64,000 nucleotides of DNA from Agromyces atrinae (GTDB lineage Bacteria; Actinomycetota; Actinomycetes; Actinomycetales; Microbacteriaceae): the NCBI RefSeq assembly GCF_013407835.1, contig NZ_JACCBI010000001.1, forward strand, positions 930,001 to 994,000, read 5' to 3'. Below the pieces are notes generated by a model. It was not told the DNA's origin. It made no database searches and saw nothing but the letters and a program-made list of their open reading frames with translations. The translations under genes and the position numbers were made by a program. Of this stretch, positions 11,910-18,556 are shown in pieces. Within the stretch, counting starts at the first letter, position 1. Each line of letters begins with the position of its first letter.

Positions 11910-12110
11910 ATGACCAATCGTGCCCGCGGCAACCGCCGCTATCGGAAGAGCGTGGACCGGCGCGTCCAGGTGTTCTCCGAGTCCAACAGCGAAACGCGCA
12001 CCGAGCGGATCGCCCGCATCATCACTAGCGCCGGCCTCGAACAAGCTCGCGTCGAAGCCGCCGCTCGCGCCGAACACGTCGAACGTGACGAAGGAGGCGA
12101 GCATGCCTGA
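11910..12110 (+). CDS. Small basic protein at the head of the transfer operon
   Basis: The product has 66 residues. Its start is very basic (MTNRARGNRRYRKSVDRRVQ) and a helix follows, TRTERIARIITSAGLEQARVEAAARAEH. Small basic proteins often precede the TraG-like ATPase gene in actinobacterial elements; DNA binding is plausible but unproven. AAGGAGG stands before ATG 11910. The end overlaps the ATPase start by eight bases. Confidence 0.6.
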   Translation: MTNRARGNRRYRKSVDRRVQVFSESNSETRTERIARIITSAGLEQARVEAAARAEHVERDEGGEHA

Positions 12111-16747: not shown

Positions 16748-18556
16748 ATGTACCAAGAAGGCGAGGAAGCGGCAGCCACCCTGGCGCAACCGAATCTCAC
16801 ATCAGTCGCAGGGCTTGAACACCTATTCAAGGGCGACGACACGATGCACGTCCCGCTCCGCACGGGCATGGCAATCAGCTACCTGCGCGTTTCCACGACG
16901 CGCCAGCTCAACACCGCAGCCGACCTCGACGAGGACGGTAATAGCATCGCCACCCAGCGCGAGTGGGCGATCCGCAAGGCGAAGGAGCTCGGCGTGCCGA
17001 TTCTTCCCGAGTTCGTCGAACCGGGCCAGTCCGCGCAGACCATCGACAAGCGGCCGGAGTTCAAGAAGCTCCTCCGCTTCGTCGATGCCAACCCCGACAT
17101 CCGCTACGTCGTGATCTACATGCGCTCGCGCGTCTTCCGCAATCACCTCGACGCTGCCATCACGAAACGTCAACTTCGCGACAAGGGCGTCGAACTGATC
17201 TCGGCGAAGGAGAACTTCGGCGACGGCTACATGGGTGATGCGATGGAAGCCATCACCGACGTCGTCAACGAACTCCAGGTCCGTATGAGCGGCGAGGACA
17301 TCCGTATCAAGATGGCGCACAAGGTCGAACGGGGCGGAAGCGTCGGGCGCGCCAAGCTCGGCTACCTGAACGTGCGAAAGGACTTCGACGGACGACTCGT
17401 CAACACGATCGATGTCGATCCAGTGCGCGCACCGCTGATCGTCTGGGCCTTCGAGCAATACGCCACAAATCAGTTCTCTATCACGCAGCTCCAGATGATG
17501 CTCGAAGACCAGGGCCTGACCACGAGGCAGTCGAGCAAGCGGGCCGCCAAGCCGCTGTCGAGCAGCCAGCTCGCGATGATCCTGCGCGACCCGTACTACA
17601 CCGGAGTCATCCGCTATAAGGGGAAGCTCCACCCTGGCAGGCACACGCCGCTCATCTCGAAGGAGCTGTTCCTCGCGGTGCAGAAGATCCTCGACGGACG
17701 CAATCGCAAAGGTGACCGCGACCGGATCCACTTCCACTTCCTGCGCGGCCTGCTGTACTGCGCCGAATGCAAGTCGGAGGGGCGCACGAGTCGACTCGTC
17801 TACAGCCAGAACAAGGGGCATGGCGGCACGTATGAGTACTACGTTTGCACCGCGAAGCAGCGCGGTCACTGCTCGATGCCGTCGGCGCGACTCGACGAAC
17901 TCGAAGACGAGGTGGCGCAACGGGTCGCGGCTGAGCGCTTCGATGCAGAAGACATCGCGTCCGTTCGTGAGGAAGTTCGACGCGCCCTCGTCGAGCTCCA
18001 AGCCGCGGACCAGGAAGAGGAAGACGCCCTCCGCAAGCAACTGAAGAAGCTCGAAGCCCAAGAGGAGCGGCTCATCGAACTCGCCGCCGACGGAACGATC
18101 GCCGTCGAGAAGCTGCGTCAGCGGCTTGAATACGTGACGCTCCAGAAGGGCGCCATCACCGAGAAGCTCACACGGACGGTCGAGCGCATCCGACAGGGGG
18201 TCGACAAGGCCTTCGCGTTCGTCGACCTCCTCGAAGATCCCGCCGCGCTCTACAGGCAGTTGCCCGACAACGTCCGCCGCCAGCTGCTCACTGCGTTCTT
18301 CACGCGACTCGACGTCCAGGTCACCGATCGCGAAGTGAGCATCGGCGTCGAACGCACCGAACTCAACGCCGGCCTCCACGACTGGCGCTCCCAGCACCGC
18401 CTCAGCGCGAGCACGCACCCACCCGCCAAAGAAAAGAGAGCCTCCCGCACTTCTGCGGAAGACTCTCTTTCGGACCTATACCCGCTTACTCAGTCCAAAG
18501 GTTTGAATAAGCCTGTATTGGTCGGGCTGACAGGATTTGAACCTGCGACCCCTTGA
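16748..18556 (+). CDS. Large serine recombinase (site-specific integrase) of the element
   Basis: The product has 602 residues. It has a resolvase catalytic domain (AISYLRVSTTRQL with the nucleophilic Ser, then YVVIYMRSRVFRN), a recombinase domain (GRAKLGYLNVR ... QLAMILRDPYYTGVIRYKG), a zinc-ribbon region (LLYCAECKSEGRTSRLVY ... YVCTAKQRGHCSMPS) and a coiled coil (VREEVRRALVELQAADQEEE). This is the full layout of large serine integrases. I start at ATG 16748, seven bases after AAGGAGG; the frame is open upstream and ATG 16598 would add 50 residues. The last codons, for VGLTGFEPATP, are read from the antisense of the tRNA-Pro 3' half, so the attachment core supplies the C-terminus. Confidence 0.88.
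   Translation: MYQEGEEAAATLAQPNLTSVAGLEHLFKGDDTMHVPLRTGMAISYLRVSTTRQLNTAADLDEDGNSIATQREWAIRKAKELGVPILPEFVEPGQSAQTIDKRPEFKKLLRFVDANPDIRYVVIYMRSRVFRNHLDAAITKRQLRDKGVELISAKENFGDGYMGDAMEAITDVVNELQVRMSGEDIRIKMAHKVERGGSVGRAKLGYLNVRKDFDGRLVNTIDVDPVRAPLIVWAFEQYATNQFSITQLQMMLEDQGLTTRQSSKRAAKPLSSSQLAMILRDPYYTGVIRYKGKLHPGRHTPLISKELFLAVQKILDGRNRKGDRDRIHFHFLRGLLYCAECKSEGRTSRLVYSQNKGHGGTYEYYVCTAKQRGHCSMPSARLDELEDEVAQRVAAERFDAEDIASVREEVRRALVELQAADQEEEDALRKQLKKLEAQEERLIELAADGTIAVEKLRQRLEYVTLQKGAITEKLTRTVERIRQGVDKAFAFVDLLEDPAALYRQLPDNVRRQLLTAFFTRLDVQVTDREVSIGVERTELNAGLHDWRSQHRLSASTHPPAKEKRASRTSAEDSLSDLYPLTQSKGLNKPVLVGLTGFEPATP
18433..18470 (-). terminator. Terminator of tRNA-Pro, lying inside the recombinase 3' end
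   Basis: AAGAGAGCCTCCCGCA (18434-18449) pairs with TGCGGAAGACTCTCTT (18454-18469) with two G-U-type mismatches around a CTTC loop. Read on the minus strand it is followed by TTTCTTT, so it ends the tRNA-Pro transcript. It is provided by the mobile element and lies within codons of the recombinase. Confidence 0.75.
18519..18556. other. Probable right attachment site (attR core region) in the tRNA-Pro 3' half
   Basis: The recombinase frame crosses from element DNA into the 3' part of tRNA-Pro and stops at 18554-18556. Restoring the tRNA 3' half at the junction is the usual outcome of integration into tRNA genes. The matching left copy is not in the window, so the exact core cannot be fixed. 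Confidence 0.6.

Follow-up and report, generated by a model that had tools for sequence, protein, structure and literature searches.

A probable integrative mobilizable element with a MOBC-type relaxase candidate at a tRNA-Pro gene of Agromyces atrinae

A 64,000-base stretch of Agromyces atrinae DNA (hereafter the window; bases 930001-994000 of contig NZ_JACCBI010000001.1, from a single-contig 3.65-Mb genome) carries a compact block of genes that ends at a tRNA-Pro(ggg) gene. This block is probably the mobility module of an integrative mobilizable element (IME) inserted at the 3' end of that tRNA gene, with its own VirD4-like ATPase, a MOBC-type relaxase and a serine integrase and with no mating pore. 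We found an integrase of its own with attachment (att) sites, a relaxase candidate of family PF13814 and, in the ORFs scanned, no genes of a type IV secretion system (T4SS), as expected of an IME. A preliminary description of the block, based on the DNA letters, had proposed a self-contained unit without relaxase that borrows the conduit of a host or helper, or that works by a mechanism not yet described. The borrowed conduit is retained here as the best reading, that of an IME without mating pore. The absence of a relaxase cannot be maintained, because CONJscan files PF13814 as the MobC relaxase (PMC5357655; statements on published work here and below refer to the accessible portions of the papers cited). 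An undescribed mechanism is not needed, because a MOBC relaxase together with an own VirD4 and a serine integrase makes up a published class of IME.

Extent of the element and attachment sites

As delimited by comparison with other genomes, the element is 18,280 bases long (18.28 kb), has the 6-bp core GGTCGG and lies entirely inside the window; the length follows from the core at 240-245 recurring at 18520-18525. In the genome G240, in which the site is unoccupied, the bases that immediately adjoin tRNA-Pro(ggg) on its left align with window 184-248 (83% over 65 bases, E 9.6e-12) and nothing lies between them and the tRNA gene. The unoccupied genome G428 gave a weaker alignment of window 197-248 (79% over 52 bases, 4e-4). 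In another genome of the genus (G315) a related element of about 42.3 kb occupies the same tRNA gene, and its left end bears the same hairpin and GGTCGG; the arms common to both elements are TACCTCTGTTCCA on the left and GTCCAAAGGTT on the right. One observation weighs against this delimitation: in the stretches compared further left, the gene order does not agree with that of the unoccupied genomes, and for this reason the left end rests on the short alignments and on the parallel in G315. The hairpin at the left end is probably the terminator that ends the tRNA-Pro transcript, and the right-hand hairpin of the element, beside the 3' side of the tRNA gene, possibly stands in for the terminator so displaced.

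Two other possibilities were rejected. Repeats of at least 14 bases that 18380-18640 shares with the chromosome from 850001 on included none from the tRNA end (there was one direct copy, 15 bases from 18405-18419 in the integrase gene, located 24 kb left of the window, as well as three inverted copies), and the 6-bp core was adopted in place of a long att repeat because of the comparison with unoccupied sites. A more distant left end was rejected on the strength of the G240 and G428 alignments and the G315 element; with the left end at about 240, there is no unseen left part of the element, in which the preliminary description had allowed for a T4SS or relaxase. The tRNA-Pro(ggg) gene is a hot spot in the genus: of the 41 genomes, at least 13 carry copies of its end (33-45 bases) on the same contig, and these extra copies probably stem from other elements.

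Conservation of the module in Microbacteriaceae

Homologues of the relaxase candidate were detected in 29 of 398 Microbacteriaceae genomes, that of A. atrinae included, three of them by weak matches (G308, G210 and G331; 1e-3 to 1e-9). We fetched 27 loci from this family search and one named locus, and compared 26 (the contig scan returned one named relative, Microbacterium schleiferi); the two loci of G308 (L074 and L075; 29% identity, no ATPase match) are excluded from the 26-locus counts. The ATPase was found by tblastn in all 26 loci, and the order methyltransferase, hydrophobic protein, ATPase, relaxase gene is kept in 22, the remaining four (L050, L055, L072 and L073) being cut by contig ends. 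This gene order is beyond chance. The preliminary description had named homologues not found together as grounds for giving up its proposal, and had suggested a search for the same order in other actinobacterial genomes; the 22 loci answer both points in its favor. Among the papers listed by literature searches, none was seen to describe this family in Microbacteriaceae.

The integrase of the relatives was traced by ORF (open reading frame) clustering and by its catalytic motif. A serine-recombinase motif lies downstream in 24 of the 26 loci, and the contigs of the other two end earlier. A complete tRNA gene on the opposite strand comes next in 19 loci (Arg-cct in 6, Pro-ggg in 4, Ala-cgc in 4, Ala-ggc in 3, Leu-tag and Arg-ccg in 1 each). 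Among the seven loci without one, four are on contigs that end near or before the site, and in L054, L057 and L067 no tRNA was called (in L057 and L067 the integrase ORF nonetheless ends in a tRNA-like reading). The operon is therefore nearly, and not strictly, always beside a tRNA gene.

In the window itself, the block at 11519-18556 runs in one direction and is tightly packed, with small overlaps between the 66-aa (amino acid) basic gene and the ATPase gene (8 bases), between the latter and the ORF at 14226 (4 bases), between the relaxase and 118-aa genes (4 bases) and between the 118-aa and 274-aa genes (4 bases). The unidirectional operon with overlaps of a few bases that ends at the attachment site, as first described, is thus real, and tRNA-Pro stands at its end. 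Its start was set too far to the right at 11910, since the conserved block reaches further left to include the hydrophobic protein and an MT-A70 methyltransferase. The matches of an NCBIfam scan were all of the coupling-protein and recombinase kinds and lay far below the cut-offs. The coordinates of all features are collected in Table 1.

Table 1. Features of the element and its surroundings (window coordinates)
Feature	Coordinates	Strand	Basis and remarks
attL	184..245		Core GGTCGG at 240-245 after chromosomal hairpin 203-236; alignment to unoccupied genomes, G315 parallel
Cargo region	297..10900		Helix-turn-helix ORF 297-743; PDC-M36A-like 782-2194; DUF3846 4134-4673; pilin-like 7789-8202; others unmatched
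MT-A70 type DNA adenine methyltransferase	10905..11519	+	PF05063, 2.3e-23; in 22 of 26 loci, 4 misses at contig ends
66-aa hydrophobic protein, candidate ATPase anchor	11519..11719	+	Hydropathy; probably two membrane helices
Operator-like repeat and promoter-like pair	11749..11808	+	TTGTGGAATGGACAA at 11749-11763; TTGACA 11780-11785, CGTAAT 11803-11808
66-aa basic protein	11910..12110	+	Isoelectric point (pI) 10.55; tblastn match in 4 of 26 loci
VirD4/TrwB-like coupling ATPase	12103..14229	+	708 aa; no membrane domain; Walker A GPTGSGKS at residue 303
60-aa ORF between ATPase and relaxase genes	14226..14408	+	Position conserved, protein sequence not evidently
Candidate origin of transfer (oriT)	14262..14361	+	Inferred; 12-bp direct repeats 14262-14297, conserved GACT 14358-14361
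Replic_Relax protein, MOBC-type relaxase candidate	14411..15253	+	280 aa; MarR-like winged helix and PD-(D/E)XK-like domain
118-aa protein	15250..15606	+	Present in nearer relatives; tblastn match in 9 of 26 loci
274-aa acidic protein	15603..16427	+	pI 4.48; match in 16 of 26 loci
Large serine integrase	16598..18556	+	ORF open from 16496; ATG at 16598 with ribosome-binding-like stretch; last codons inside tRNA
Hairpin at right end of element	18433..18470		Sequence; beside 3' side of tRNA
attR			Core GGTCGG at 18520-18525, within tRNA-Pro end
tRNA-Pro(ggg), integration target	18519..18595	-	

The relaxase candidate

The 280-aa protein matches PF13814 (Replic_Relax) at 6.8e-37 (127.8 bits against a cut-off of 25.3), its sole Pfam family, and its predicted structure joins a winged helix to a restriction-endonuclease-like domain. 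MOBC relaxases are described as akin to PD-(D/E)XK restriction endonucleases (PMC12857230), and residues D170 and E187 are invariant in all 28 sequences aligned (24 relatives, the window and three plasmids). We regard the protein as a candidate MOBC-type relaxase with a predicted nuclease-like fold. The family assignment in published schemes and the matching model both contradict the label ‘without relaxase’, and the gene sits inside the cassette, not to its left. PHROG 9381 (‘replication initiation by nicking’) also matches the protein (1.7e-10), and the closest homologue among the matches listed is from Agromyces laixinhei (94% identical). PF13814 did not match two ORFs of the mobC region in the CloDF13 record, the relaxase-family profile retrieved nothing useful from PDB sequences, and a tblastn search of plasmids with the Replic_Relax protein gave no match.

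The coupling ATPase and a probable membrane anchor

Scored over the whole protein, the ATPase passes the cut-offs of PF10412 (TrwB_AAD_bind; 28.0 bits, cut-off 20.5) and PF02534 (T4SS-DNA_transf; 24.4 bits, cut-off 20.1), with no single stretch reaching either alone; FtsK_SpoIIIE (PF01580) stays below its cut-off (16.4 bits against 24). All 23 family members whose start is intact, the window's included, have no N-terminal hydrophobic stretch that exceeds the hydropathy threshold, which bears out the earlier remark that the ATPase lacks N-terminal membrane helices. Among plasmid ATPases, those of Embleya and Streptomyces have such a stretch and those of Bacillus subtilis and Rhodococcus do not. 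The ATPase adjoins a replication-relaxation protein in three of the four plasmids examined (Embleya, Streptomyces and B. subtilis; not Rhodococcus ruber). Two phage records carry the ATPase, both of Bacillus phage G.

Just upstream of the ATPase gene, an ORF of 62-75 aa with two to three hydrophobic windows was found in 23 of the 26 loci (the window and 22 relatives); the misses, L055, L072 and L073, are truncated at contig ends. A precedent exists in pIP501, whose coupling protein TraJ is devoid of a membrane domain and has the small two-helix protein TraI as its proposed anchor (PMC7434980, PMC12857230, PMC13037476). The ATPase without membrane domain, the linked hydrophobic ORF and the pIP501 precedent make a split coupling protein the likeliest reading of this gene pair.

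The serine integrase

The ORF that closes the operon matches PF00239, PF07508 and PF13408 and enters the tRNA-Pro(ggg) gene, in agreement with the large serine recombinase of the preliminary description. The tRNA gene supplies the end of the integrase ORF at 18519-18556 (reading ...VGLTGFEPATP), and the same ending occurs in L048, L056, L057, L067, L070 and L071; judging from this arrangement, the C-terminus of the integrase would change upon excision. Integration of serine recombinases into tRNA genes was called rare in a 2011 survey (PMC3218068). A second large serine recombinase is encoded elsewhere in the genome (C1:538022-538264).

Candidate oriT between the genes for ATPase and relaxase

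The gap in front of the relaxase gene is a candidate oriT. Across 26 loci (25 relatives and the window) it shows a lag-12 repeat signal with a z of 14.3 (10.1 when computed from a subset of 16 divergent loci), compared to 1.6 to 5.3 in four coding controls; since the loci are related, z is not to be read as a probability. GACT or GAACT follows the repeats in 25 of the 26 loci, and the repeats are weak in the window itself (13 of 24). TraX of pAD1 is reported to bind five direct repeats 70-120 bp from the nic site (PMC12857230).

The ORF at 14226, doubtful from the start, holds up by position and not by sequence: an ORF of 49-81 aa that overlaps the ATPase stop codon by 4 bases is present in 22 of 26 loci (a count without a chance control), with no evident conservation of the protein. 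It may be a leader, a coupling device or a by-product of oriT-like DNA. In M. schleiferi (L048:4423-5688) an IS110-family transposase and two further ORFs lie between the ATPase and relaxase genes.

Upstream of the operon, the motif TTGTGGAATNNACAA (11749-11763) occurs in one exact copy in the 3.65-Mb genome, just before the promoter-like pair, and 8 of 26 relatives have it at the same place, exactly or with one mismatch; by its position, it may be an operator. A one-mismatch copy lies on the other strand in the cargo (5474-5488), and L051, L052 and L053 each have a second copy followed by a hairpin.

Mating pore and helper

Pfam scans of the main ORFs of the element (not every small ORF was scanned) revealed no T4SS pore families, in agreement with the preliminary description, which saw no VirB4 or channel gene in its 18.5 kb. 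In the A. atrinae genome three probes for VirB4 (P-loop_TraG, the Embleya VirB4 and AAA_10, PF12846), all of limited sensitivity, matched nothing, and the one match of TraG-D_C was the ATPase itself, below cut-off. Because of these blank VirB4 searches, a helper appears not to be resident in this genome. VirB4-like genes do exist in the bacterial family, as far as the probes tell: the Embleya probe matched 10 of 27 carrier genomes, some of them weakly, and judging by coordinates all of these matches fall outside the regions fetched around the relaxase gene. Of the 27 genomes, 16 matched PF12846, several at the coupling ATPase, and the negative result of this probe in A. atrinae is the one used here. 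Among the relatives, the left end was determined for the element of G315, and 10 representative upstream ORFs were scanned for T4SS genes.

A model of mobilization and its alternatives

In the model that we favor, that of an IME mobilized through a foreign pore, the serine integrase would recombine attL with attR over the 6-bp core, at boundaries placed by comparison, and so free a circle. The Replic_Relax protein, with its predicted fold and conserved residues, would bind the direct repeats of the gap and nick near GACT. The TrwB/VirD4-like ATPase, anchored by the small membrane protein whose gene is linked to it upstream, might then bring the nicked DNA to the type IV channel that a conjugative helper element provides, and the methyltransferase, perhaps the acidic protein too, may shield the DNA on entry.

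A quite different possibility is transfer independent of any T4SS: joined to the small membrane protein, the ATPase would be a DNA pump complete in itself, a split coupling protein sufficient as translocator, and the nuclease-like partner would process the DNA, so that the island would move through neither an own nor a borrowed T4SS. The lack of a detected VirB4 gene in A. atrinae and of an Embleya-probe match in 17 of the 27 carrier genomes speaks for it, and so do two precedents: Thermus TdtA, proposed to act as such a pump in transjugation, a ring ATPase whose gene adjoins that of a NurA-type nuclease on an element of 14.9 kb flanked by tRNA repeats (PMC5365140), and the single-protein TraB-type transfer of multicellular actinobacteria, e.g., Streptomyces (PMC5704250). 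However, the partner here belongs to PF13814 and not to NurA, and VirB4-like genes lie within about 5 kb of the similar ATPase-Replic_Relax pairs on the Embleya, Streptomyces and B. subtilis plasmids. Furthermore, a helper need not reside in the genome that carries an IME, and the VirB4 probes could have overlooked one. We consider such a pump distinctly unlikely.

The constant partners of Replic_Relax, namely a coupling ATPase and the small membrane protein, together with the CONJscan assignment as relaxase (PMC5357655), also make it very unlikely that it is first of all a replication initiator or regulator of the excised circle, with transfer secondary or lost. That role would suit the winged-helix domain, the PHROGs matches to replication initiation families and a phage member annotated among replication genes; replication and relaxase roles are compatible, not exclusive. 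We give hardly any credence to a defence system of the HerA-plus-nuclease kind, made up of the ATPase and the nuclease-fold protein and carried as cargo. The ATPase does match mad8 of PADLOC (8.8e-17), but this is no argument for defence, because the coupling proteins of two T4SS-bearing plasmids match it equally (2e-16 and 8e-17). The 280-aa protein has no PADLOC match, and the serine integrase that follows the pair in nearly all loci is unlike the setting of variable cargo.

Relation to known mobile elements

The nearest counterparts of the proposed IME are streptococcal. IME_Class_8 combines VirD4, MobC/PF13814 and a serine integrase in a compact structure (PMC5357655), and 71 PF13814 IMEs with VirD4 have been listed in Streptococcus suis (PMC12479173); the three mobility proteins, the compact arrangement and the lack of a mating pore are the same as here. 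Two distantly related S. suis PF13814 IMEs also carry an adenine methyltransferase. In contrast to the streptococcal IMEs, the family described here is actinobacterial, lies mostly beside tRNA genes and has conserved genes for the MT-A70 and small membrane proteins. The window's coupling protein has no membrane domain; those of the streptococci are known to us by description and enter no comparison on this point.

Likewise by description, the plasmid system of PMC7434980 resembles the element in having its own coupling protein and a MOBC relaxase but no T4SS, and differs in being a plasmid and not integrative, and pIP501 resembles it in the soluble VirD4-like ATPase (TraJ) with a small hydrophobic protein (TraI) nearby, but is equipped with a T4SS of its own and a relaxase of the MOBQ class. 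Thermus ICEth1 (PMC5365140) has a similar size, flanking repeats derived from a tRNA gene and an FtsK-HerA type ATPase beside a nuclease gene, whereas its pair is of the HerA-NurA type and the accessible text mentions no PF13814 protein. The actinomycete integrative and conjugative elements (AICEs; PMC3218068) are integrated and actinobacterial and some use serine integrases, as here, but they rely on an FtsK-like protein for transfer and also on a replication initiator. The AICE survey, as far as its accessible text goes, would have missed the present element, because it sought only MOBF relaxases among T4SS-type elements, and a review of 2017 knew of one IME in Actinobacteria (PMC5704250).

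The element thus represents a known principle in a new branch, with novelty in the family itself, in its serine integrases that target tRNA genes, in a coupling protein that is probably split and in a candidate oriT that can be tested. Islands that may escape plasmid typing are thereby assigned to a mobility class; the three plasmids with the similar gene pair (Embleya, Streptomyces and B. subtilis) were typed as non-mobilizable. The element also offers a compact test system for the split coupling protein, the oriT of MOBC relaxases and the targeting of tRNA genes by serine integrases.

Cargo and other observations

The preliminary description called the 274-aa protein ArdA-like. It has no Pfam or PHROGs match, and no similarity in sequence or in the list of fold matches, whose silence is no proof, points to ArdA; its acidity is the sole feature that fits. 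ArdA (PF07275) was not matched in the Pfam scans of the window element and its relatives, and a genome search with PF07275 gave no match anywhere, controls included. An anti-restriction role of this protein is a guess.

In the cargo, a 470-aa protein partially matches PDC-M36A, a candidate in PADLOC (6.9e-18), and is possible defence cargo. The type IV pilin-like gene of the element matches N_methyl (5.6e-7) and weakly ComP_DUS, and motifs of this N-methylation type were also seen on the upstream side of the module, in G315 and, twice, in L052. Outside the element, at about 45000-50000 of the window, the G+C content falls to 0.54-0.59 from about 0.69 around it; this is probably a second foreign region.

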